From NCBI RefSeq assembly GCF_947648125.1, contig NZ_CANSMR010000019.1, positions 1 to 64,000 of the forward strand: 64,000 nucleotides of DNA, in the 5' to 3' direction. The translations under genes were made by a program, and so were the position numbers. The notes beneath the pieces are model-generated. The model saw only the letters and a list, made by a program, of their open reading frames with translations, ran no database searches and was not told where the DNA came from. Below, in pieces: positions 41,444-56,078 of this stretch; the first letter of the stretch is position 1; every line of letters starts with the position of its first letter. This DNA comes from an uncultured Bradyrhizobium sp. (GTDB lineage Bacteria; Pseudomonadota; Alphaproteobacteria; Rhizobiales; Xanthobacteraceae).

Positions 41444-43321
41444 CTAGTCCTTGTTGCCGCGCAGGGCGCGATAGATCGTATTGCGCGACACGCCGAGGCG
41501 GCGCGCGGTCTTGCTGATGTTGTTGCCGGTTTCGGTGTACGCAGTCAGCACGTGCGAGCGCTGAATCTCGTGTAGATTGGCCTTGAGCCCACCACCCGCC
41601 GCCTTGCCGGTCAGGCGCTCGCCGCCGGAATGTGCAAGTACGGACTCGACCGATGTCTCGCAGATCAGATCTCCCGGCTCGGCCAGTGACAATCGGGAAA
41701 GCACGTTGCGCAGTTCGCGGATGTTTCCATCCCAATCGAGTTCGGCCAAACGATCGATCGCCCCTTCGGTCAAATCCATCAAGGGATCGATCTTGTGGAT
41801 CAAATGCCGCACGATCTCGGCGAAATCGGAACGCTCGCGCAAAGGCGGCAACGTCACCTCCAGCGTGTTGAGGCGAAACAGCAAATCCGATCGGAATCGG
41901 CCCTTCGCTATCGAGTCGTCGAGATTGGCATTGGTGGCAGACACCAGGAGAACGTCGACCTGACGTTTGGTGCCACCGACCGGCCGGACAGTCCAATCAT
42001 CTAGAAAGCGCAGCAGCACGGCCTGCAACGTCACCGGCATGTCGCCGATCTCGTCGAGGAAGAGCGTTCCGCCGTCCGCTTCCTTGAACAGTCCCGCAGC
42101 CCCGCCCTTTTTGGCTCCCGTGAAAGCGCCTTCGGCATAGCCGAACAACTCGGCCTCGATCAGGCTGTCGGGGAGCGCTGCGCAATTCACCGGAACGAAA
42201 GCGCCGGCCCGTCCACTGGCGGCATGAGCATGGCGGGCGAGTTGCTCCTTGCCTGTGCCGGTTTCGCCGCGGATGAGGATCGGCATCTTCCGGACGGCCG
42301 CGATGCCGACCTGCTGGACCACGGAGGCGATCGCGGGATCCGCCGATACGAATTGCGTGGCGACGCCCTTGGGTGCGGGAGGCCGGGGCCGCGAGACCGC
42401 CTGGATCATCGAGAACTGGCGCGCGTTTTCGATGGTTGCGACGAACTGGCTGCCGACCTCATCTTGCAGGCGCTGGCGTTCTTTGTGCCGCCCTTCATCG
42501 ACAAAGGCGCTGAACTTGGTGCGAAACACGTCGGCGAAGCGGCGCCCCGGTGAGGCGGGCAGGCCATGCAGCAGGACGCTCGCGGCGCGGTTCGCCGCAA
42601 GGATACGGCCCTCATTGTCGACGGCGAGCAGGCCGGCGCTCAGGGTGTGGAGGTATTCGCCGCGGTTGTGGAAGGCGATCAGGATGTTGCCGCGGTGATA
42701 CTCGCGGAACAGGCCGTTCTCGATCTGGGTTGCCGCCATCGCCACCAGCGCCTGGGTGTGAGCCTGGCGCGACATGCAATCCGATGACGCATCCAAGATT
42801 CCTGCCAGTTCTCCGTCGGGCGCGAAGATCGGGGCCGCGATGCATGTGAGGTTGCTGTAGCGCGGGAAGAAGTGCTCGCGTCCGTGAACGACGATGGCCC
42901 GCTTGAGATAAGCCGCCGTGCCGAGGCCGTTGGTGCCGCAACTGGCTTCGCTCCACACCGTGCCGGGCCGGATACTCGCGGCGTCGGAGGTGTCACTGAA
43001 GCTCGAGTCCGAGATGATGTCGAGCAGCAGGCCGTCGGCGTTCGCAAACGCGATCATGAAATTCGAGCCGGCGATCTGCTGATGCAAGGTGTGCATCTCC
43101 GCGAGCGCCAGGCCGCGGATCAGTGAGCAGCGCTGCTGTTCCTGGCGCAGCACGGCGCTGCTCACGAGTTCGGGCGACGGCGGACGCAGGGTGTCGAGGC
43201 CAAGCGAAATGCAGCGCATCCAGCTATCGTAGATGTCCGCGGACAGAAGTTCGGCCGGCAGTGCGCCGCGCTGCTCGAGCGTCATCCAAGCACTGTCGAT
43301 GCGTCGGCCGGATGTCAGCAT
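41444..43321 (-). CDS. AcoR/MimR-like sigma-54-dependent activator of the monooxygenase operon
   Basis: 625 residues. Order: N-terminal GAF-type sensor (about 70-210), AAA+ domain (about 320-550) with Walker A GETGTGKE, EGAFTGA sigma-54 loop and GGTLFLDEIGDM, then a Fis-type helix-turn-helix (NNISKTARRLGVSRNTIYRAL). Start ATG 43321 with GGGAGGAG upstream. It is divergent from the alcohol dehydrogenase; the 335-bp gap contains a palindrome and a sigma-54 promoter. Such activators (AcoR, MimR, PrmR) respond to alcohols, ketones or phenols and switch on the adjoining operon. It shares its AAA domain almost completely with the regulator at 53634-55559. Confidence 0.9.
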   Translation of the reverse strand: MLTSGRRIDSAWMTLEQRGALPAELLSADIYDSWMRCISLGLDTLRPPSPELVSSAVLRQEQQRCSLIRGLALAEMHTLHQQIAGSNFMIAFANADGLLLDIISDSSFSDTSDAASIRPGTVWSEASCGTNGLGTAAYLKRAIVVHGREHFFPRYSNLTCIAAPIFAPDGELAGILDASSDCMSRQAHTQALVAMAATQIENGLFREYHRGNILIAFHNRGEYLHTLSAGLLAVDNEGRILAANRAASVLLHGLPASPGRRFADVFRTKFSAFVDEGRHKERQRLQDEVGSQFVATIENARQFSMIQAVSRPRPPAPKGVATQFVSADPAIASVVQQVGIAAVRKMPILIRGETGTGKEQLARHAHAASGRAGAFVPVNCAALPDSLIEAELFGYAEGAFTGAKKGGAAGLFKEADGGTLFLDEIGDMPVTLQAVLLRFLDDWTVRPVGGTKRQVDVLLVSATNANLDDSIAKGRFRSDLLFRLNTLEVTLPPLRERSDFAEIVRHLIHKIDPLMDLTEGAIDRLAELDWDGNIRELRNVLSRLSLAEPGDLICETSVESVLAHSGGERLTGKAAGGGLKANLHEIQRSHVLTAYTETGNNISKTARRLGVSRNTIYRALRGNKD

Positions 43322-43465: not shown

Positions 43466-43488
43466 AACTGTTCCGACTCGGAACAGTT
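43466..43488 (+). promoter_or_regulatory. Probable enhancer site for the sigma-54 activator
   Basis: AACTGTTCCGA-C-TCGGAACAGTT is a perfect 11-bp inverted repeat with a single-base centre. It lies about 85 bp upstream of the -24 element of the sigma-54 promoter, where activators of this class bind. No second copy is seen in the window. Confidence 0.7.
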
Positions 43489-43572: not shown

Positions 43573-43588
43573 TGGCACAGCCCTTGCT
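43573..43588 (+). promoter_or_regulatory. Sigma-54 (-24/-12) promoter of the mim operon
   Basis: TGGCACAGCCCTTGCT matches the sigma-54 consensus TGGCAC-N5-TTGC(T/A) without a mismatch, with GG and GC correctly ten bases apart. It faces the alcohol dehydrogenase start codon 69 bp away. The only match of this quality I see in the window. Confidence 0.9.
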
Positions 43589-43656: not shown

Positions 43657-44700
43657 ATGAAAGCGGCGGTGCTGCATGAGTTCGACGAGAAGCTGACGGC
43701 AAAGGAGTTCGTCAGGTTCGAGGACGTGACCGACCCGAAGATCTCGCGTCCGATGGACGTGATCGTGCGCCTCGGCGGCGCCGGCGTCTGTCGCACCGAC
43801 CTGCATATTGTCGAAGGCATTTGGCGCAGCAAGGTCGACGTCAAGCTGCCTTACATCATGGGTCACGAGAATGCCGGCTGGGTCGAGGCGATCGGGCCGG
43901 GTGTCGAAGGGGTCAAGGTCGGCGACAGCGTGATCTGCCATCCGCTGGTGACCAGCGGGCATTGTCTGGCATGCCGCCGCGGCGACGACATGCACGCGCT
44001 GGATAGTTCGTTTCCCGGCATCAACGCCAATGGCGGCTATGCGCAATATCTGCTGACCGGCCAGCGCTCGCTGATCAAGTTGCCGAAGTCGCTCGCACCG
44101 AAGGACGTCGCTCCCTACACCGACGCCGGCCTCACGGCCTATCGCGCCGCCAAGAAGGCATCCCGCCATCTGCTGCCGGGTGAATATGTCGCGGTGATCG
44201 GCGCCGGCGGGCTGGGCCATATCGGCATCCAGGTTCTGGCAGCGCTCTGCGCGGCAGAGATCATCGTGATCGATCGCGCTGCAGACTCGCTCGAGCTCGC
44301 CAGGAAGTGTGGCGCGCATCATCTCGTGAAGGCTGACGGCAATGAAGTTGAAGCCGTGCTGGCGCTGACCGGCGGGCGGGGCGCGGAGGCTGTGATCGAT
44401 TTTGTCGGCGAGGGTGACGCTATCGCCAAGGGCCTGTCGATGACGGCGAACGCCGGCTACTACTACATCGTCGGGTATGGCGGGAAGATCGATATCCCGA
44501 CCATCGACATGATCACGTCGGAAAAGACGATCGTCGGCAATCTGGTCGGCACCTATGCCGAACTGGTCGAACTGATGGCGCTCGCGGACCGCGGCCTCGT
44601 CGAACTCCACACCAAGGAATACCGGCTCAGCCAGGCCAACGAGGCGCTTCATGATCTGCATCATGGGCGCATTCATGGCCGTGCGGTGCTGATCCCCTAG
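43657..44700 (+). CDS. Zinc-dependent alcohol dehydrogenase of the mim operon
   Basis: 347 residues, medium-chain dehydrogenase. Catalytic zinc ligands fit CRTDLH (Cys43 region) and GHENAGWVE; the coenzyme site is GAGGLGHIG. The structural zinc lobe is altered: only the pair in GHCLAC remains, while the first and last of the four cysteines are Ser and Ala (TSGHCLACRRGDDMHA). It probably oxidises propanol or another alcohol to the carbonyl compound in the cytoplasm. First gene after the sigma-54 promoter; start ATG 43657 follows GGGGAGG. Next gene begins 3 bp after its stop. Confidence 0.9.
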   Translation: MKAAVLHEFDEKLTAKEFVRFEDVTDPKISRPMDVIVRLGGAGVCRTDLHIVEGIWRSKVDVKLPYIMGHENAGWVEAIGPGVEGVKVGDSVICHPLVTSGHCLACRRGDDMHALDSSFPGINANGGYAQYLLTGQRSLIKLPKSLAPKDVAPYTDAGLTAYRAAKKASRHLLPGEYVAVIGAGGLGHIGIQVLAALCAAEIIVIDRAADSLELARKCGAHHLVKADGNEVEAVLALTGGRGAEAVIDFVGEGDAIAKGLSMTANAGYYYIVGYGGKIDIPTIDMITSEKTIVGNLVGTYAELVELMALADRGLVELHTKEYRLSQANEALHDLHHGRIHGRAVLIP

Positions 44701-44703
44701 GGC

Positions 44704-45129
44704 ATGTGCCACGAGATGCAAAGCTTCAGTCCGGATCGTCGAGCGAGAGTGGCGCGAGTGACAGACGACAGCCCGCCAAGGCCACAGATCACCGCCGGGG
44801 ATGCGGCCGAACTGCGGCGCGCCCGCGACCGGATGATCGCCCGGGACAAGGTGATCGACGAGATGGTCGACAACAACGAGCGGCGGATCACCAACGAGCA
44901 TGCCCGCGGTGGCGCCGAAATCGAGCTCGCCTGTGCCGTGCGTGGCGCGGCGCGTGCCGAAGCCGGGCCTGAGGCGCATGCGGAGTTGGAGCGGGCGATC
45001 GCACGCCTGGAGCTGCTCCGGGAGGAGGATCGGCGCCTGGTGGCCGAGCGCGAGTGGCTCAACACGTCACTGCGCGAGATCGACGACGGCCCGTCACCCG
45101 GCGAACACGAACGTTCGGGGCACGCATGA
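44704..45129 (+). CDS. Unknown charged helical protein in the mim operon
   Basis: 141 residues if started at ATG 44704; GTG 44758 (VTDDSPPRP) is a possible later start. The body is rich in Arg, Glu and Ala with long heptad-like stretches (AAELRRARDRMIARDKVIDEMVDNNERR and ELERAIARLELLREEDRRLVAEREWLNTSLREI), so a coiled coil of two helices is likely. No membrane segment. I do not recognise a family. It lies 3 bp behind adh and overlaps the next gene by ATGA, so it belongs to the operon. I know of no counterpart in the actinobacterial mim or prm operons. Confidence 0.7.
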   Translation: MCHEMQSFSPDRRARVARVTDDSPPRPQITAGDAAELRRARDRMIARDKVIDEMVDNNERRITNEHARGGAEIELACAVRGAARAEAGPEAHAELERAIARLELLREEDRRLVAEREWLNTSLREIDDGPSPGEHERSGHA

Positions 45130-45359
45130 CGAACGAGGCGACCATGATTGCATCAGAGGAGCAGAAGCAAATGCCGTCTCCGCAACCGGGCATGAGCGAG
45201 GAGGACAGGTCGAAAGACGCCTTCTTCATCCAGCTGGCCGCGATCGCGGAAGCCATGATCGCCGCGCACGGCAAGGATTTCGCCACGGGCGCACTGGTTC
45301 TCTCGGCGAAATTCGTCGCCGAAGGAAAACCTCTCATCAAACGGGCCAGCGGAGGGTGA
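45126..45359 (+). CDS. Unknown small protein in the mim operon
   Basis: 77 residues, start ATG 45126 overlapping the stop of the previous gene (ATGA), a sign of translational coupling. The second half (SKDAFFIQLAAIAEAMIAAHGKDFATGALVLSAKFVAEGKPLIKR) is a mainly helical, amphipathic sequence. No cysteines, no signal. No family recognised. Its place directly before mimA suggests an accessory or regulatory role for the hydroxylase. The 152-bp gap to mimA contains a small inverted repeat (GTTTTGA / TCAAAAC, 45451-45471). Confidence 0.7.
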   Translation: MTNEATMIASEEQKQMPSPQPGMSEEDRSKDAFFIQLAAIAEAMIAAHGKDFATGALVLSAKFVAEGKPLIKRASGG

Positions 45360-47182: not shown

Positions 47183-47193
47183 GCGTGACGATG

Positions 47194-47286: not shown

Positions 47287-48327
47287 ATGACGGACGTGCT
47301 GGTTCATAAGGTTCGTTTCGAGCCGGTGGGCATCGAGATGGAAGTGGAAGAGGGCGAGACGGTGCTCGACGCGGCGTTTCGCCAAGGCATCTCGCTGATG
47401 CATGGCTGCAAGGAGGGCCAGTGCGGGAGCTGCAAGTCCAGGCTGGTCGACGGCGACATCGAACTGCTGAAATATTCGACCTTCGCCTTGCCGGACTACG
47501 AAAGCGAGACCGGCCACGTGCTGCTGTGCAGGACGCATGTCTACAGCGACATCAGCGTCGAGCTGCTCAATTATGACGAGGATCTGCTCAGCCGCTCGAT
47601 CGCGGTGAAGGCGTTTGCCGGCCGCGTGACTGATGTGACGGCGCTGACGTCCGACATCAGGCTGCTGGAGATCGACATCGACAGACCGATGAAGTTCTGG
47701 GCCGGCCAGTATGTCGATCTGACGCTGGAGGATGGCAGCATCACGCGCGCATTCTCGATGGCGAACCCGCCGTCTGAAGCGACCCGTCTCCGCTTCATCA
47801 TCAAGAAATACCGGAACGGGGCGTTCTCGGCCCAGCTCGATGGGAAGCTCGGTATCGGGGATGCGGTGACCGCCAAGGGGCCTTACGGCACCTGCTTCCG
47901 GCGCGAGGAGCGGCCGGGGCCGATGCTGCTGATCGGAGGCGGTTCGGGCATGTCGCCGCTGTGGTCGATCCTGGCCGATCACATCGGCAGCGGCGAGCAG
48001 CGGCCGGTGCGGTTCTTCTATGGTGCGCGCACCCGTGCCGACCTGTTCTATCTCGAAGAGCTCGCGGCGATCGCCGCGCGGCTCGACGATTTCAAATTCG
48101 TGCCGGCGCTGTCGCATGCCGAGGCGGGCGATGGCTGGGACGGCGAGACCGGGCTGATCCACGAGGTCGTACAGCGGCATCTGCGCCAGGAGAAATTGAG
48201 CGGTGCCATCGACGCGTATGCGTGCGGGCCGACGCCGATGATCGACGCCGTGTTGCCCGTCCTGCAAATGAACGGGGTCGAGCCCGAACACATCTACTTC
48301 GACAAGTTTACGCCGGCGGTGCGATGA
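47287..48327 (+). CDS. mimB: Monooxygenase reductase component (MimB/PrmB type)
   Basis: 346 residues. N-terminal plant-type [2Fe-2S] ferredoxin (Cys41, Cys46, Cys49, Cys81: GCKEGQCGSC ... LLCRTHV), then an FAD domain (RAFSMANPPSE) and an NAD(P)H domain (LIGGGSGMSPLWSIL, ACGPTPMIDAV). It carries electrons from NADH to the di-iron centre of MimA. Start ATG 47287 (MTDVLVHKVR) is 102 bp inside an open frame that begins at 47185 within the hairpin region; the ATG fits family length. Followed by mimC after 49 bp. Confidence 0.94.
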   Translation: MTDVLVHKVRFEPVGIEMEVEEGETVLDAAFRQGISLMHGCKEGQCGSCKSRLVDGDIELLKYSTFALPDYESETGHVLLCRTHVYSDISVELLNYDEDLLSRSIAVKAFAGRVTDVTALTSDIRLLEIDIDRPMKFWAGQYVDLTLEDGSITRAFSMANPPSEATRLRFIIKKYRNGAFSAQLDGKLGIGDAVTAKGPYGTCFRREERPGPMLLIGGGSGMSPLWSILADHIGSGEQRPVRFFYGARTRADLFYLEELAAIAARLDDFKFVPALSHAEAGDGWDGETGLIHEVVQRHLRQEKLSGAIDAYACGPTPMIDAVLPVLQMNGVEPEHIYFDKFTPAVR

Positions 48328-48376: not shown

Positions 48377-49480
48377 ATGAGCGCGCAAGCAAGTAGAGCA
48401 GCAGCAACCAAGCCGGCAGCAATCGTCAAATCCGGGGCAGCGGGGGCCGCAGTGTTCCCCGGCTCTGACAGTCGCAAGTACAACTACTTCGAACCCAAGG
48501 GCCGCAAAGCGACCCACTACGAGGACATGACGGTTGACGTTCAACCGGATCCGGAGCGCTATCTGCTGCAGGACTGGATCATCTCCTTCCCGGACGGAAC
48601 GCCGACCTATTCCAAGGATTGGACGGCTGCGAAAAGTTCGAACTGGCACAAGTTCCGCGCCGTCGACCAGGAATGGGAGCGCACGCACTATCAACGCCAG
48701 TCGACGATTTGCGGCATGGTGCAGAACACCATCGAGAACGGCCGGAAATCGGGCGCGCCAACCCGCTTCGATCCGGCCTGGGTGAAGATTTTGCAGAACC
48801 ATCTCGGCGCCTACAAGCATGCCGAGTTCGGTCTCGGCACCTCCACGATGCAGGCGCAGCGTTACGGTTATACGCAGATGGTCAACAATGCGATCCTGAC
48901 CAACTCGTCCTACAAACTTCGCTTCGCGCAGGACATCACTCTCTATCTGAGCGAAATCGGCCTCGACCTTCCAGGCTTCGACATTGCCGCCGGCAAGAAG
49001 CACTGGCTGGAAGATCCGATCTGGCAAGGCGTGCGCAAGTCGGTTGAGTCGGTGATGGGTTCAAACGACTATCTGGAGCAATATTTTGCGACCAATGTGG
49101 TGTTCGAGCCGCTTATCGGAGAACTGTTCCGTTCAGGCTTCCTGATGCAGGCGGCATCTGCGCAGAACGACTTCATCACTCCGGCTGTCGTCTCCGCCGC
49201 GGAAGCCGACTATGAGCGCAATCTCGCCAACACAGTCGAGCTGTTCCACATCCTCGGCACCGATCCGACCTACGCGGCGCAGAACCTTTCGTTGTTCAAC
49301 AAATGGTTGGCCAGGCATGCCGATCTCGCGCTCGATGCCGCCAATCATCTGCAGCCGATCTGGTCGCAGCCGCGTGTCAAGGTCGCGGCTTTCGCCGACG
49401 CGCTGGCGCACGCGAAGAATCGCATCAGGGGCATTGCTGCCGAGCTTGGTCTGACGGTTCCGGAAAATCTCGCGTCGTAA
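48377..49480 (+). CDS. mimC: Monooxygenase hydroxylase beta subunit (MimC/PrmC type)
   Basis: 367 residues, ferritin-like helical protein of the hydroxylase beta family: KYNYFEPKGRKATHYEDMTVDVQPDPERYLLQDWI, WHKFRAVDQEWERTHYQRQS, and the YLEQYFATNVVFEPLIGELFRSGF segment. It pairs with MimA but does not bind iron itself (the ligand pairs are not complete). The first 35 residues are Ala-rich and low in complexity. Start ATG 48377 with GGGAG upstream. Between mimB and mimD. Confidence 0.93.
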   Translation: MSAQASRAAATKPAAIVKSGAAGAAVFPGSDSRKYNYFEPKGRKATHYEDMTVDVQPDPERYLLQDWIISFPDGTPTYSKDWTAAKSSNWHKFRAVDQEWERTHYQRQSTICGMVQNTIENGRKSGAPTRFDPAWVKILQNHLGAYKHAEFGLGTSTMQAQRYGYTQMVNNAILTNSSYKLRFAQDITLYLSEIGLDLPGFDIAAGKKHWLEDPIWQGVRKSVESVMGSNDYLEQYFATNVVFEPLIGELFRSGFLMQAASAQNDFITPAVVSAAEADYERNLANTVELFHILGTDPTYAAQNLSLFNKWLARHADLALDAANHLQPIWSQPRVKVAAFADALAHAKNRIRGIAAELGLTVPENLAS

Positions 49481-49524: not shown

Positions 49525-49881
49525 ATGCTGCACGAGAATGACAACATCTTCAAATCGATGAAAGACATCACGTTCGAGGACACGGTATCGCATCAATGCG
49601 GGGTCACCATGAACGATAGTGTCGAGGCGCGTGCCATTGCCGAGGTCATGAGCCGTCACGACCACATCAAGGTGACATACATGCCGGCGATGATTCGCAT
49701 CGATGGCGACGGCAAGATGGAATTCAAGATGGACGAGATCTCGGAAGAGCTCGGCCGGGTCATGACCCCGCATCTCTTCGAGATCTCTACCTCGACGCAT
49801 TACGGCCGCATGGTGATGACGGATGACAACACCGTCATGCTGTTCGGCGACATGAACGAGATGATGAAATACATCGTCTGA
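49525..49881 (+). CDS. mimD: Monooxygenase coupling/effector protein (MimD/MmoB type)
   Basis: 118 residues of the MmoB/DmpM family: DSVEARAIAEVMSRHDHIKVTYMPAMIRIDGDGKMEFKMDEISEELG. The small cofactor-free protein binds the hydroxylase and controls substrate access and electron flow. Start ATG 49525 is preceded by AGGAG. It closes the core mimABCD set and is followed by a perfect 8-bp hairpin before the amidohydrolase. Confidence 0.92.
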   Translation: MLHENDNIFKSMKDITFEDTVSHQCGVTMNDSVEARAIAEVMSRHDHIKVTYMPAMIRIDGDGKMEFKMDEISEELGRVMTPHLFEISTSTHYGRMVMTDDNTVMLFGDMNEMMKYIV

Positions 49882-49992: not shown

Positions 49993-51036
49993 ATGTACAG
50001 GACAGCCAAGGGTGAAGAGATTTTTGTCATCGATGGGCATACGCATTTCTGGGATGGAAGTCCGGCAAACCAGAAGAACATCCACGGCAAGCAGTTCATC
50101 GACTGCTTCTACGCCTACCACTCGAACCTGAGCCCGCCCTCGGAGAAATGGGAGAAGGAGAAGTTCGAGAAATACGATGCCAAGACGATGTTCGACGACC
50201 TGTTCGTCACCGGCTATGACGACATGGCGATCCTGCAACCGACCTATCTCACCGATTTCTACAAGAGTGGTTTCAACACCACTGAACGAAATTCGGCGAT
50301 GAAGAAGAGCCATCCGGATCGCTTCATCCTGAATGGCGCGTTCGATCCGCGTGACGGCACCAAGGGCCTGGAAGCTCTTCATGCGCTGTCCGAGAAGCAC
50401 AAACTCAAGGGCGTCAAGCTCTACACCGCGGAATGGCGTGGCGAATCGAAGGGCTACAAGCTGACCGACAAGGCGTCCTACCAATATCTCGAGGCTGCGC
50501 AAAAGCTTGGCATCAAGAACATCCACGTCCACAAGGGACCGACAATCATCCCGCTCAACCGCGATGCGTTCGACGTGGCCGACATCGATGATGTGGCGAC
50601 CTCGTTCCAGGACCTGAATTTCATCGTCGAGCATTGCGGCTTGCCGCGGCTCGACGATTTCTGCTGGATCGCGACCCAGGAGACCAACGTCTATGCGGGT
50701 CTTGCGGTGGCGCTGCCCTTCATCCATTCGCGGCCGGGTTATTTCGCCCATGTGATTTCCGAACTGTTGTTCTGGGTTGGACCGGAGAAGATCCTTTACG
50801 GTAGCGATTACGGCATCTGGACGCCGAAATGGCTGATCGACAAGTTCATGGCATTTGAGATTCCGGCCGACGTCACCAAGGAGACCGGTTCGGTGTTGTC
50901 GATGGAGGCCAAGACCAAGATTCTCGGCCTCAACGCCGCCCGCATCTACGGCATCGATGTCGAGGCGCAGAAGAAGAAGATCCGAGCCGGCGGCGGTTAT
51001 GCCCATTTGCCCGAAGCCGTTCACGCGCCGAGGTGA
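49993..51036 (+). CDS. Amidohydrolase-2 family protein of the mim operon
   Basis: 347 residues. Metal-dependent hydrolase/decarboxylase fold with the HxH start (IDGHTHFWDG), a central histidine (NIHVHKG), VEHCGLPRLDD and the C-terminal aspartate in LYGSDYGIW. The same kind of gene follows mimD in Mycobacterium and prmD in Gordonia. Its reaction in the pathway is unknown; hydrolysis or decarboxylation of an oxidised ketone product is possible. Start ATG 49993 has GGGAG upstream. Overlaps the next gene by TGATG. Confidence 0.9.
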   Translation: MYRTAKGEEIFVIDGHTHFWDGSPANQKNIHGKQFIDCFYAYHSNLSPPSEKWEKEKFEKYDAKTMFDDLFVTGYDDMAILQPTYLTDFYKSGFNTTERNSAMKKSHPDRFILNGAFDPRDGTKGLEALHALSEKHKLKGVKLYTAEWRGESKGYKLTDKASYQYLEAAQKLGIKNIHVHKGPTIIPLNRDAFDVADIDDVATSFQDLNFIVEHCGLPRLDDFCWIATQETNVYAGLAVALPFIHSRPGYFAHVISELLFWVGPEKILYGSDYGIWTPKWLIDKFMAFEIPADVTKETGSVLSMEAKTKILGLNAARIYGIDVEAQKKKIRAGGGYAHLPEAVHAPR

Positions 51037-51842
51037 TGGTCATGAAGCGTGGCGTTGAGGGGAGGGAGCGGCAGAGAAGCCGCTCGTCAGATGACAAGCA
51101 GTCCCAGATATGGGCCTGCTTGCAAGGCGTGATGGATCCGGAACTCGACGAGTCCGTCACCGAGTTGAATTTCGTGACCAAGGCCGACGTCGACCCGAAG
51201 GACCACGTCCACATCGAGTTTCGTTTGCCGACCTATTGGTGCGCTGCCAATTTCTCATTCCTGATGGCAGACGACATGCGCCGGGCTGTCAGCGCGTTGG
51301 ACTGGGTCAAGGGCGTCAGCGTGGTCTTGGGTGAGCACATGTATGCCGACAAGATCAATGCGGGCCTCGCCCAGGGACGCTCGTTCCAGGAAACGTTTGG
51401 CGCCGAGGCCGATGGCAGCCTCGATGATCTGCGTCAGACATTCCTCGTCAAAGCGTTCCAGCGCCGCCAGGTTGCGCTGCTCGGCCACCTCGTTGCGCTC
51501 GGGCAGTCGCCAGCACAGATTGTGAGCCTGACGTTGAGGGAGCTGGGTTGCCTGCCGCTCGACGATGCAGGTGAGAAGCTGATTCAGCGCTATCTTGAGC
51601 GGCGTGCTGTCGTAGGCCCGGCAAGCGGTGATAGGATTGCCTTTGTCGACGCGAACGGAGCGCGGCTAAGCGCCGACGGCCTCGCCGGATACGTATCGAA
51701 TCTACGGCGTGTCGGCATCAATGCCGAATTCAACGGCGCGTTGTGCCGTGGCCTGCTTGCCGCGCGATTCGACCTCGAGACACCGTTCGTATCGAAAGCG
51801 AGGACGATACCGGCGTCGCCGGGTACGCAACAGGGGCCGTGA
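51036..51842 (+). CDS. DUF59/MIP18-type protein with unknown C-terminal extension
   Basis: 268 residues. The first 100 are a DUF59 (PaaD/SufT-like) iron-sulfur assembly domain: QIWACLQGVMDPELDESVTELNFVTKADV and FRLPTYWCAANFSFLMADDMRRAV, with one conserved Cys in TYWCAANF. The remaining 160 residues (from about residue 110, KAFQRRQVALLGHLVALGQSP onward) match nothing I know. DUF59 proteins help to load iron into enzymes, so a maturation role for the di-iron centre of MimA is plausible. Start ATG 51036 overlaps the amidohydrolase stop. No [4Fe-4S] motif of its own. Confidence 0.85.
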   Translation: MVMKRGVEGRERQRSRSSDDKQSQIWACLQGVMDPELDESVTELNFVTKADVDPKDHVHIEFRLPTYWCAANFSFLMADDMRRAVSALDWVKGVSVVLGEHMYADKINAGLAQGRSFQETFGAEADGSLDDLRQTFLVKAFQRRQVALLGHLVALGQSPAQIVSLTLRELGCLPLDDAGEKLIQRYLERRAVVGPASGDRIAFVDANGARLSADGLAGYVSNLRRVGINAEFNGALCRGLLAARFDLETPFVSKARTIPASPGTQQGP

Positions 51843-51908: not shown

Positions 51909-53537
51909 ATGCCGAAGATCATGTTGCACGATGAAGCTGCGCGGGCCGCGCTCGGCCGGGGCGTCGCCAAGCTCGCCAAGGCGGTACGCGGGACGCTGGG
52001 TCCGAAGGGCATGAACGCGATCATGGACCGGCCGATCGGCACGCCGATCGTGTCGCGCGATGGCGTCAGTATTGCCAGCGAAATCGAACTTGAATGCCCG
52101 TTTGAGAATATGGGCGCGCAGGTGTTGCGCGAGGTTTCAGCGCGAACCAATGAGGTGGCGGGGGACGGCACCACCACGGCCACCGTGCTCGCCGATGTTC
52201 TTGTGCAGGAAGGCCTGAAATGTCTGGCGGCCGGCGCCAATCCGGTCGAACTGGTCGAAGGGCTGGAGCTGGCGGTTACCGAAACCATCACGGCGTTACG
52301 ACGGTCGGCGAGACCGCTGCAGGGGCCTGCCGGCCTGCGGGCTGTTGCGAGCATTGCCGCCAACGACACAGCGCTCGGCGCCATGGTAGGCGAAGCCTTC
52401 GAGCGCGCCGGCAATCACGGAATCGTCGCGGTGGAATTCGGCAACACGGTCGAGACGACGCTGGAAATCGTCGAAGGCATGGCCTTCGATCGAGGCTATC
52501 TTTCACATCACATGGTCACCGATGTCGAGAAAATGCAGGTGGTTCTAGACAATCCCTTCATCATCATGACCGATCTCAAGATCCAGGCCGGGGAGCAACT
52601 CGCTGGTGTTATCTCGCTCATCGAGAAGAGCGGGCGACCCTTGCTGATCATCGCCGAGGAAGTAGCGCCGTCGGTCATCATGCAATTGCTGGCGCATCGG
52701 GAGAAATCCAATTTCAAGGTCGCCGCGATTCACCCGCCGGAGTTCGGCCATTGGCGCAAGGCGATGCTCGAGGATATTGCGATCACGACCGGAGGGCGCG
52801 TCATCTCGGCTGATCTGGGCGGAAGGCTCGAGAAGGCGGAACTGCACGACCTCGGGTCCGCGCGCCAGGTGCGCATTTCCGCCTCGAAGACCCTGATCAC
52901 AGCGGGAGGTGGCGATCAGAAGACCATCGCGGCGCGACGCGAACAAGTGTTGCGCCAATACGATGCCGCTCCCGAAAATATCGAACGGGACAAGTTCCAG
53001 GAGCGCATCGCAAAACTGTCCGGCGGCACGGCGATGATTCTCGCCGGCGGCGCGACGCCGGTCGAGCAAAAACGCCGGACCCAGTTGATCGAGGATGCCA
53101 TCAACGCGACCCGCGCTGCGCTCGAAGAAGGTATTGTGCCGGGTGGCGGAGTGGCCTTGTTGAGGATCGCTGCAAGGCTCGACGAATTGATCAATCGCCT
53201 GGACGGAGGCGCCAGGCAGGGCGCCGAACTGCTGCAACGCGCACTCAGTCGGCCGCTTTTCTACATCGCCGCCAATGCCGGCCTGAACGGAGAGGCGGAG
53301 GTTGCGAAAATTGCCAAGGCCAGGAATGGCTACGGGCTCGACGTGCGCAATGGCTCGGCGGTCGATCTTGTCGAAGCTGGTATCATCGACCCGGTCAAGG
53401 TTTGCTACAGCGCGGTTCGCAATGCGGCATCGGTGGCCGGACTTATCCTGACGACGCAGACCTTGATCGCCAAGAAGCCGGATGATTACGATCCGACCGC
53501 CGGCCCGGCCCGAGGTGGTGGTGCTGAGCTGCTCTGA
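51909..53537 (+). CDS. GroEL-like chaperonin dedicated to the monooxygenase (MimG type)
   Basis: 542 residues, full-length chaperonin. ATP-site segments RGTLGPKGMNAIMDRPIG, GDGTTTATVLA and INATRAALEEGIVPGGGVALL are intact. The C-terminal GGM tail of housekeeping GroEL is missing (ends GPARGGGAELL), and the apical domain is divergent. No groES is beside it. Mycobacterial mimG, required for active MimABCD enzyme, sits at the same position, so folding of the hydroxylase is the likely task. Last gene of the operon. Confidence 0.92.
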   Translation: MPKIMLHDEAARAALGRGVAKLAKAVRGTLGPKGMNAIMDRPIGTPIVSRDGVSIASEIELECPFENMGAQVLREVSARTNEVAGDGTTTATVLADVLVQEGLKCLAAGANPVELVEGLELAVTETITALRRSARPLQGPAGLRAVASIAANDTALGAMVGEAFERAGNHGIVAVEFGNTVETTLEIVEGMAFDRGYLSHHMVTDVEKMQVVLDNPFIIMTDLKIQAGEQLAGVISLIEKSGRPLLIIAEEVAPSVIMQLLAHREKSNFKVAAIHPPEFGHWRKAMLEDIAITTGGRVISADLGGRLEKAELHDLGSARQVRISASKTLITAGGGDQKTIAARREQVLRQYDAAPENIERDKFQERIAKLSGGTAMILAGGATPVEQKRRTQLIEDAINATRAALEEGIVPGGGVALLRIAARLDELINRLDGGARQGAELLQRALSRPLFYIAANAGLNGEAEVAKIAKARNGYGLDVRNGSAVDLVEAGIIDPVKVCYSAVRNAASVAGLILTTQTLIAKKPDDYDPTAGPARGGGAELL

Positions 53538-53633: not shown

Positions 53634-55559
53634 TCACTCGGGCTTCTTCTGCCCGAGAGCGCGATAAATGGTGTTTCTTGAGACGCCGAGACGGCGCGCG
53701 GTTTCGCTGACGTTTCCGGCGGTCTCGGCATAAACCACCAGGATTCGCGCGCGATGGATGTCGTGAAGTGATCCGGACTCCGTTCCGGCGGGGTGAACGA
53801 TGTTCTCCGCGCCGGCTCCGTTGATAAATCCGTCCGCAGCGGCAAGGCTGAATCGCGCCAGAACGTTGCGGAGCTCGCGGACGTTGCCGGGCCAGGGACG
53901 TGCGGCGAGATGCGCAATGTCGGTCGGCGTGATTTCGCAATTCGGGTCGATCGTATTGAGCAGATGGCGAACGATGGCATCAAAGTCGTTTCGATCCCGA
54001 AGTCGCGGCAGAGTGACCTCGAGCGTATTGAGACGATAGAGCAGGTCAGATCGGAACCGGCCTTCGACGATGGCCTTGTCCAACCTGGCGTTGGTGGCGG
54101 AGATGAGAAAGACATCGACCTTCGATCTGACGCCGCCGACGGGGCGCACGGTCCAGTCGTCGAGCAGGCGCAGGAGCACCGCCTGCAGCGCGACAGGCAT
54201 GTCGCCAATCTCGTCAAGGAACAGCGTGCCGCCGTCGGCCTCCTTGACCAGTCCAATCGAGCCGCCGCGCCGGGCCCCAGTGAATGCTCCTTCGGCATAG
54301 CCAAACAGCTCGCTCTCGATCAGGCTTTCCGGCAGGGCGGCGCAATTCACAGGAACGAACGCGCCGGTTCGCCCACTCGCGATATGGGCGTGGCGGGCAA
54401 GCTGTTCCTTGCCGGTTCCGGTCTCGCCGCGGATGAGGATGGACATCTTGCGTGCTGCTGCGGTCTCGACTTGACGGACGATGGCTCGGACCGCCGGGTC
54501 GTGCGCAACAAAGCTGGCGGCCATGCTCTGAGGAGACCGTGGTTCCGGCCTTGAATCCTTTCGGGCGGATGATGAACTCGCGCTGTCGCTGCCTTCGGAT
54601 TCGGACCTCGATTTCCGGGCGTCGGGATGCGTGATTAACTGGCGTCGGCGCGTATGCAGCACCACGATTGCGCCGATGCCGGAGCGTTCATTCTCGACGA
54701 AGTTGAAGCTCGCGTTGGGAAGCAGCTTCTTCAGCCTGCTCGGCCACTCATCGAAGGGAACCGTCTTCAAAAAGCGGGTTGGCGCGTCGTTGTGAATGCC
54801 GTGGCGATCATGCTGGAGTGCGTTCAGAGCACGCTCGGTGGCGTGGAGGATCATGCCACGACGATCGAGCACGATGCATTCATCGTTCGCCCATTGCGAT
54901 CTCTTGCCGAGAAAGCGGCATAGCAACTCCTCGTGTTCCTGTCGGACTGATTGAGCCAGAACGCTTTCCACGTGATGGCCGACCGCGACGGCCAAAGCCA
55001 GGCTCTGCGGATTGAAGGTGCTCGCAGGACCCGAGATGTCGACCACGCCAAGCAGTTCGCCATCGGTCGGGTCATGAACCGGGACGGCAGCGCAAGTCCA
55101 CCGCTGCACCTCCGAGCAGAAATGCTCCGTACCGTGAATCTGGACAGGTTTCGATTCAGCTATCGCGGCACCAATCGCGTTGGTGCCAATGTCGGCCTCG
55201 CTCCAGCGACCTCCGTGTTCGAGATGGACTGCGCGGCCGGCGTCAATGACCCTGTCGTCGCCCTGCGTATCGATGATCAGCCCACTCGGATCGGTGAGGA
55301 TCATGATTGAGTTTGCATCGCGTAGAAATGTTTTTGAATTTTCGAGAGCGCAGCGGGCGGCATGACGGAGCGGCGCGTATTTGGAGCGACGACGAAACAA
55401 CTCGGCGTCCGCGACGAGCGGCGCTCGCGCACGGTCGACGGTGACGCGATGGTTCCTGGATCGCTGCCACGACGCTGCGACCGATGATCTCAAGTCGGAT
55501 GACAACGCTCCGCGCTCGACGAACTTCTCCCATGCCGCCAGCACTTCCCGTTGGTCCAT
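53634..55559 (-). CDS. Second AcoR/MimR-like sigma-54-dependent activator
   Basis: 641 residues, start ATG 55559 with GGAGGAG upstream. GAF-type sensor (about 60-210: SIMILTDPSGLIIDTQGD, WSEADIGTNAIG, CAAVPVHDPTDGELLGVVDISGP), a PAS-like middle part, the AAA+ domain (GETGTGKE, EGAFTGA, GGTLFLDEIGDM) and a Fis helix-turn-helix (GNVSETARRLGVSRNTIYRAL). The AAA and C-terminal parts are very close to those of the regulator at 41444; the sensor parts differ more. It runs towards the mim operon from the far side, so it may answer another inducer of the same operon, or the nitrilase cluster. Confidence 0.88.
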   Translation of the reverse strand: MDQREVLAAWEKFVERGALSSDLRSSVAASWQRSRNHRVTVDRARAPLVADAELFRRRSKYAPLRHAARCALENSKTFLRDANSIMILTDPSGLIIDTQGDDRVIDAGRAVHLEHGGRWSEADIGTNAIGAAIAESKPVQIHGTEHFCSEVQRWTCAAVPVHDPTDGELLGVVDISGPASTFNPQSLALAVAVGHHVESVLAQSVRQEHEELLCRFLGKRSQWANDECIVLDRRGMILHATERALNALQHDRHGIHNDAPTRFLKTVPFDEWPSRLKKLLPNASFNFVENERSGIGAIVVLHTRRRQLITHPDARKSRSESEGSDSASSSSARKDSRPEPRSPQSMAASFVAHDPAVRAIVRQVETAAARKMSILIRGETGTGKEQLARHAHIASGRTGAFVPVNCAALPESLIESELFGYAEGAFTGARRGGSIGLVKEADGGTLFLDEIGDMPVALQAVLLRLLDDWTVRPVGGVRSKVDVFLISATNARLDKAIVEGRFRSDLLYRLNTLEVTLPRLRDRNDFDAIVRHLLNTIDPNCEITPTDIAHLAARPWPGNVRELRNVLARFSLAAADGFINGAGAENIVHPAGTESGSLHDIHRARILVVYAETAGNVSETARRLGVSRNTIYRALGQKKPE

Positions 55560-56078
55560 CCCGGCTCCTCCGAAGTGAGAGGTGCTGCACCCGCTCACGA
55601 CGGGCCCTGCGATCATTCACCTGAATGCGGGGGAATGCCTGCCGCAACTGCCGGTTCGCTCACGCAAAGTCCGACGGCAAGACCCGTCCAGGCCGCCGTA
55701 ACGGCCGTCCGATCGGATTCCATTCCGCCGCACCCGCCGTCAAGACGACCGCGCCTTCCGACAAGCAACCCCTTCAGCGTCCCACGTCCCTAACGTCCCA
55801 GGCTTTTCTCTCGTACCCGTTGACCAGATCAGCCTATCCTTTTCGAATGGTTCTAGCAAAGGTAGCGATCGAAGTTCCTTCGGGCCGCGGCTGGATATGT
55901 TGGAAAATTGGGGCCAGGCGCGCTGTAGTGCGGCGCAGCATTCGATCCTTCCGCCAAATTTCAAAACGAAGAGACGATAGCCCGATCGAACGTGAGACAT
56001 TAGCTTCCGGGGCACTGAACCACCGCAACGGTCGCGCTGATTGCACGCTAACGCTTGAACCAGCGCTGGATTGCGATT
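55560..56078. other. Intergenic region between the second activator and the IclR gene
   Basis: About 520 bp without a supported gene. It must hold the promoter of the activator gene. No sigma-54 motif or clear palindrome seen; short frames on both strands lack family matches. Confidence 0.5.

Follow-up and report, generated by a model that had tools for sequence, protein, structure and literature searches.

Genes A and B, two short genes that lie between an alcohol dehydrogenase gene (adh) and mimA in the operon of a Mim-like soluble di-iron monooxygenase from an uncultured Bradyrhizobium sp., are real genes, and B was shown to be tied to Mim-type monooxygenases. Judged by the company that they keep in relatives, it is moderately probable that both are maturation factors of the MimA/MimC hydroxylase, acting in its folding or iron loading.

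The window, which is the whole stretch of 64,000 nucleotides that was analysed (contig C19 of genome G000, positions 1 to 64,000), belongs to a genome of 8.57 Mb. Its operon shows the Mim/Prm-type order of large subunit, reductase, small subunit and coupling protein, together with a GroEL-like gene, and it is called here Mim-like because the best NCBIfam match of its coupling protein, the MimD equivalog NF045941, scores 107.1 bits, below the cutoff of 150. The features of the region are as follows:

41444 to 43321, minus strand: sigma-54 activator (Pfam Sigma54_activat, 8.8e-58), divergent from adh
43466 to 43488, no strand assigned: perfect 11-nt inverted repeat, a possible binding site of a sigma-54 activator, judging by its position
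43573 to 43587, plus strand: sigma-54 -24/-12 promoter-like site, TGGCAC-N5-TTGC, a perfect match upstream of adh
43657 to 44700, plus strand: adh, zinc-type alcohol dehydrogenase (Pfam ADH_N and ADH_zinc_N)
44758 to 45129, plus strand: gene A, no known family, 123 residues from a GTG (141 from an ATG at 44704)
45126 to 45359, plus strand: gene B, no known family, 77 residues
45476 to 47182, plus strand: mimA, hydroxylase large subunit (Pfam Phenol_Hydrox)
47287 to 48327, plus strand: mimB, reductase; start probably at 47287, not at 47185
48377 to 49480, plus strand: mimC, hydroxylase small subunit (Pfam Phenol_Hydrox)
49525 to 49881, plus strand: mimD, coupling protein (Pfam MmoB_DmpM; NCBIfam MimD model, 107 bits)
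49993 to 51036, plus strand: amidohydrolase-family protein, by domain match
51033 to 51842, plus strand: protein with a FeS-assembly (DUF59-type) domain, by domain match
51909 to 53537, plus strand: GroEL-like chaperonin in the position of MimG, by domain or family match
53634 to 55616, minus strand: second sigma-54 activator, located after the GroEL-like gene and convergent with the operon

The first possible start of mimB, a GTG at 47185, is probably too early and the ATG at 47287 is the better candidate, since in many relatives the match starts only 20-40 residues further on. A sigma-54 activator gene is also kept behind the GroEL-like gene in relatives, and in Aminobacter aminovorans an ORF of 63 residues without a Pfam match lies between mimA and the reductase gene (L190:13728-13919).

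The first-pass annotation had placed two ORFs between adh and mimA, at 44704-45129 (141 codons) and 45126-45359 (77 codons), overlapping by ATGA, and both are borne out as genes. Compared with 10 relatives of the same operon type, gene A has dN/dS values of 0.17-0.37 and gene B of 0.23-0.47, indicating purifying selection on both, and the overlap between the stop of A and the start of B is kept in 11/11 loci (4 bases in four of them, 1 base in seven). The start of A probably has to be moved: codons 1-18 of the 141-codon reading are unconstrained (mean pN 0.27, pS 0.24) and not all relatives have the ATG at 44704. Translation probably begins instead at the GTG of codon 19, which is present in 9/11 loci, at position 44758. 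This would leave a protein of 123 residues, 18 codons shorter than had been proposed, and widen the distance from adh, given before as 3 bp, to a probable 57 bp.

Neither gene could be assigned to a family, in agreement with their description as unrecognised: neither Pfam nor NCBIfam gave a match of A or B at E up to 1, other profile searches gave no known family either, 23 B homologues gave no Pfam match at E up to 0.1, and comparison with solved structures yielded nothing above chance level, the B profile matching none of them. The one PHROG match of A (E 0.081) was set aside as chance level. B has a conserved core around the motifs sKD.fF and hG..F..G.lvL.Ar..ae (96 distinct sequences). In some loci B is found inside open frames of 237-387 codons, which might suggest a gene fusion, but in the loci read the long frame simply continues from the overlapping neighbour gene and B has its own start.

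The link between B and MimA was followed in a sample of 149 relatives and in a phylum-wide sample of 398 genomes, both including the genome of the window. Among the relatives, B was matched in 23 and MimA in 29, the latter comprising 26 close matches (E reported as 0) and three weak ones (26-28% identity) that represent other monooxygenases. All 23 genomes with B are among the 26 with a close MimA, leaving three that have a close MimA and no B (G009, G055 and G060), and B was found in no relative lacking a close MimA; gene A, searched as a single query sequence, was found in 12/149 relatives, one of them weakly (G007). In the phylum-wide sample, MimA (E up to 1e-100) occurs in four genomes and B in five, including all four with MimA. 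The fifth (G478) is no exception, as its B lies in a decayed mim locus, together with a fragment of mimA and the terminal part of a WD40 gene. In-frame TGA codons in the MimA of four relatives, considered as possible selenocysteine codons, turned out to be stops lying outside the gene (the stop shortly precedes the start in L048 and L045, and the tblastn alignments of L047 and L049 contain none).

On plasmids, MimA at 74% identity or more is present in 18 records, 11 of which carry B (10 found by tblastn and one more, from Skermanella, by profile). The seven records without B come from Azospirillum (four), Methylocella (two) and Indioceanicola (one); the B profile gave no match on the one Azospirillum and the one Methylocella record searched with it. 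Far from being missing in most related operons, B thus accompanies 23/26 close MimA genes in the relatives, 4/4 in the phylum-wide sample and 11/18 in the plasmid records. Two plasmids have B and no MimA match, and both look like remnants: that of Rhizobium sp. CB3171 (L189) retains WD40-B and mimB-C-D, with mimA not found in the 24-kb stretch, and that of Phyllobacterium zundukense (L188) retains WD40-B in a stretch that lacks mim genes and has ISL3 transposase genes close by.

A wider scan of one genome per species (84,980 species) yielded 121 confirmed relatives of B, and the best 80 of them were retained as loci. These best 80 are all from Alpha- or Betaproteobacteria, so that the presumed restriction of the genes to rhizobia does not hold for B, although the broader proposal that this monooxygenase class has new accessory factors agrees with the absence of a family match and with the linkage of B to mim. 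Genes mimA, mimC or mimD are visible in 74/80. As for the rest, L161 shows amidohydrolase, DUF59 and groEL genes, and in L108, L124, L146, L149 and L153 the contig ends within 0.5 kb of B; a different contig of the L124 genome (L077) carries its remaining cassette and mim genes. Because B was the criterion by which the set was collected, the set gives no information on the frequency of mim operons without B. Nine of the 80 duplicate loci collected earlier, and the earlier copies were left out of the gene-content table and of the tree, except for four kept in the tree whose counterparts show no mimA. Where both genes are in view, B lies directly 5' of mimA in 41/65 loci, divergent from it in 22/65 and elsewhere on the same strand in 2/65.

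A different role is conceivable for B, that of a small subunit, structural or auxiliary, in the active hydroxylase complex, by comparison with the third subunit that methane monooxygenase and phenol hydroxylase possess. The frequent position directly 5' of mimA and the core conserved in 96 distinct sequences fit such a role, but MimABCD sets whose MimA is about 79-81% identical to that of the window can lack B (G009, G055 and G060, as well as Methylocella and Azospirillum), and no solved structure was matched, where such subunits would be expected to give a match. A subunit role is accordingly rather unlikely.

The role in maturation is suggested instead by the genes that accompany A and B in relatives. 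In a second set of loci from Bradyrhizobium and other Hyphomicrobiales, B closes a run X-coil-WD40-B, composed of a protein X, a coil protein, a WD40 protein and B. In Rhizobium and Rhodobacterales this cassette is divergent from mimA, and X was not found in all of these loci; the order is WD40-B-mimA in Acetobacteraceae and adh-A-G3E-WD40-B-mimA in Caballeronia and Burkholderia sp. S171, the G3E GTPase gene being absent from the cassette of C. zhejiangensis. By profile comparison (E 1.8e-5 over 61 columns, probability 78) and by iterated searches started from either side, which found 77 and 80 sequences with 77 shared, A and the coil protein of the cassette are one family; a kinship of A to X was rejected. 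The window-type operon contains no G3E, WD40 or X gene and has kept A and B alone, and X was not found in the genome of the window, in 8/8 others of its type tested (of 10) or in the three Bradyrhizobium without B. The two genes proposed in the earlier reading as an accessory set are therefore real and linked to mim, but they do not form a stand-alone pair, since elsewhere they are members of a larger cassette, for which searches of open-licence papers turned up no description.

Protein X (L080:13979-14428 and homologues) has about 150 residues and no named family, and its core is strongly conserved in 37 loci (gesq..l..hF, HP....F.e.Ha and RvD.WD), which might include metal ligands. Profile and database searches with A, B and X matched neither a named family nor a solved structure; three Pfam matches of single X members (E 0.059-0.097) and one of a single coil protein (E 0.017) were set aside as chance level. 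The GTPase is better defined, the one of L157 being a CobW-family protein (PF02492, 1.3e-54; PF07683, 2.8e-25) that does not reach the cutoff of any of three NCBIfam models (CobW, PRK11537 and ZigA). Twelve such G3E genes lie upstream of WD40 and B on the same strand, and 12/12 have a Walker A motif and CVCC (the CxCC metal motif); a further GTPase match in L150, 6.6 kb off and on the other strand, was left uncounted. Among the mapped loci the gene is found in Burkholderiales and in one Acetobacterales locus only. A and B themselves have no cobW domain (no Pfam match), and hence no G3E membership.

A similar pair of genes exists outside mim operons. In the genome of the window, a His-rich G3E GTPase gene and a WD40 gene (L172:4843-6965) lie directly behind a ZnuA gene (PF01297, 5.1e-88), so that its WD40 match is this zinc-linked pair and not a cassette gene that has moved. 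The WD40 profile is matched with E below 1e-33 in 13/14 genomes searched, and the GTPase beside the chromosomal WD40 gene has a His-rich stretch in 4/4 genomes checked. According to Haas et al. 2009 (PMC2770081), COG0523 subfamily 5 genes, implicated in zinc homeostasis, are found in clusters with znuABC and WD40 genes. In the mim cassettes of Burkholderiales, G3E and WD40 are similar to this pair, although 11/12 cassette GTPases lack the His-rich stretch of the chromosomal copies, and A and B are neither GTPases nor propellers. AztD is an example of a beta-propeller able to transfer a metal (PMC6689063).

To our knowledge, how soluble di-iron monooxygenases acquire their iron is poorly understood, and active enzymes of this kind are hard to make in foreign hosts. 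A and B would be the members retained of an accessory module of varying composition (X, A, G3E GTPase, WD40 and B) dedicated to proteobacterial MimABCD, and a maturation role is proposed for them because of their company: a GroEL-like chaperonin, a FeS-assembly-type protein and, in relatives, the GTPase and WD40 proteins. The module would act beside the GroEL-like chaperonin of the operon to mature the MimA/MimC hydroxylase, with the GTPase/WD40 pair handing over iron, and A and B docking on the apo-hydroxylase and keeping it open or passing it on. In the lineage of the window, the partner of A and B might be just the GroEL-like protein, or else the zinc-linked GTPase/WD40 pair of the chromosome. 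A more specific version is put forward only tentatively, and is doubtful as it stands: a Mim iron-loading machine in which the G3E GTPase would be the insertase, assisted by WD40, and X, A and B would be adaptors docking on the chaperonin-bound apo-hydroxylase, the lineage of the window keeping only the adaptors A and B and borrowing the chromosomal zinc-type pair. If true, it would represent a dedicated metal-insertion system of soluble di-iron monooxygenases. A cassette that in some lineages includes a metal-insertase-type GTPase provides a short list of genes to delete or add, which would make iron loading a question for knock-outs and could help to express proteobacterial Mim enzymes.

Known systems offer partial parallels to such a maturation module. 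The di-iron monooxygenase operons of phenol hydroxylase and methane monooxygenase likewise encode small auxiliary proteins (DmpK and MmoD) with a presumed role in assembly, but A and B gave no Pfam or NCBIfam match to these families at E up to 1, and the B profile remained unmatched among solved structures. The actinobacterial mimABCD/prmABCD operons (Rhodococcus, L187) have the same mimA-B-C-D order with adh, amidohydrolase, DUF59 and groEL genes, and likewise a dedicated GroEL-like maturation factor, MimG being described as a maturation factor of MimAC (PMC7176365). A, B, X and WD40 are absent from the two Rhodococcus operons examined, unlike the window with its A and B, and to this extent the claim that the two genes have no counterpart in actinobacterial operons is upheld. 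Chaperonin-like helpers are reported to be necessary for several soluble di-iron monooxygenases (PMC11057499). By analogy, the activator of iron-type nitrile hydratase (Nha3/P47K) may also be compared, being a COG0523 GTPase whose operon encodes a non-haem iron enzyme; Haas et al. 2009 tie it to iron incorporation and mention that GroESL bypassed it in one study (PMC2770081). Its target enzyme is different, and the mim cassette adds WD40, A, B and X.

The promoter arrangement bears on whether A and B could instead be regulators, for example partners of the sigma-54 activators or sensors of iron or of enzyme assembly. Sigma-54 sites with up to one mismatch are no more frequent in the window than by chance (three found vs 4.74 expected), the site at 43573-43587 being the sole perfect one, and support for this promoter therefore comes from its conserved position in relatives: a site with at most one mismatch is found upstream of adh in 50/67 loci, vs 0.5 expected from base shuffles. 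At the same threshold, a site precedes A in 1/74 loci, X in 0/37, WD40 in 6/74 and B in 4/102. Upstream of mimA it is present in 55/90 loci, including 21/21 of those where WD40 and B directly precede mimA, and in only 1/26 loci of the type of the window, where mimA therefore seems to depend on the adh promoter. In this lineage A and B thus seem to lie inside one adh-mim operon, consistent with the earlier statement that they share the promoter of adh, the single operon being deduced from site positions. A sigma-54 operon with a divergent activator, and flanked by a second one, would be a natural place for regulators, but no known domain, DNA-binding or other, was matched in A or B; in loci whose cassette is set apart, B comes after WD40 and X rather than after an activator (although a second activator is often near), and the company of GTPase and WD40 points elsewhere. 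Regulation is accordingly quite unlikely as their function.

A maturation module need not serve every Mim enzyme, because mimABCD-groEL operons without any module gene exist in Methylocella, Azospirillum and three Bradyrhizobium. These operons are the strongest argument against a strict requirement, and the lack of G3E, WD40 and X in the window-type operon, like the narrow distribution of the G3E gene, also counts against the maturation reading. A tree of MimA was built by a quick method from 92 rows (32/86 inner branches are open; the short rows L117, L148, L152 and L194 were dropped), with the states of L079, L081, L082 and L085 set by hand, A of L121, L127 and L135 taken from iterated searches, and B of L077 scored as present because it lies on another contig. 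In this tree neither of the two Rhodococcus outgroup rows has B, and it is also missing in 5/6 rows of one clade, formed by Methylocella, Azospirillum and the three Bradyrhizobium together with Skermanella, which keeps B. The fewest changes required are four for A, five for X, three for the GTPase, four for WD40 and three for B. On the simplest reading of this distribution, B would have been present early in proteobacterial Mim operons and the lineage of the window would have lost WD40.

The operons without B also bear on a very unlikely alternative, namely that the module serves the downstream pathway (alcohol dehydrogenase and amidohydrolase) and not the monooxygenase. That A follows adh in the type of the window, and that adh, amidohydrolase and DUF59 are likewise missing in most B-less operons, would fit this alternative; but WD40 and B accompany mimABCD-groEL in L129, L131, L139, L152 and L162, where amidohydrolase and DUF59 are not in view, L193 has B alone with mimABCD-groEL and again neither of those genes in view, and B is missing in the two Rhodococcus operons despite their adh, amidohydrolase and DUF59 genes. 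One clade of mim operons (L185, L186, L193 and L089-L091) has no adh, amidohydrolase or DUF59 gene nearby, and its three annotated operons have GMC oxidoreductase and VOC-family genes near, perhaps reflecting another substrate.
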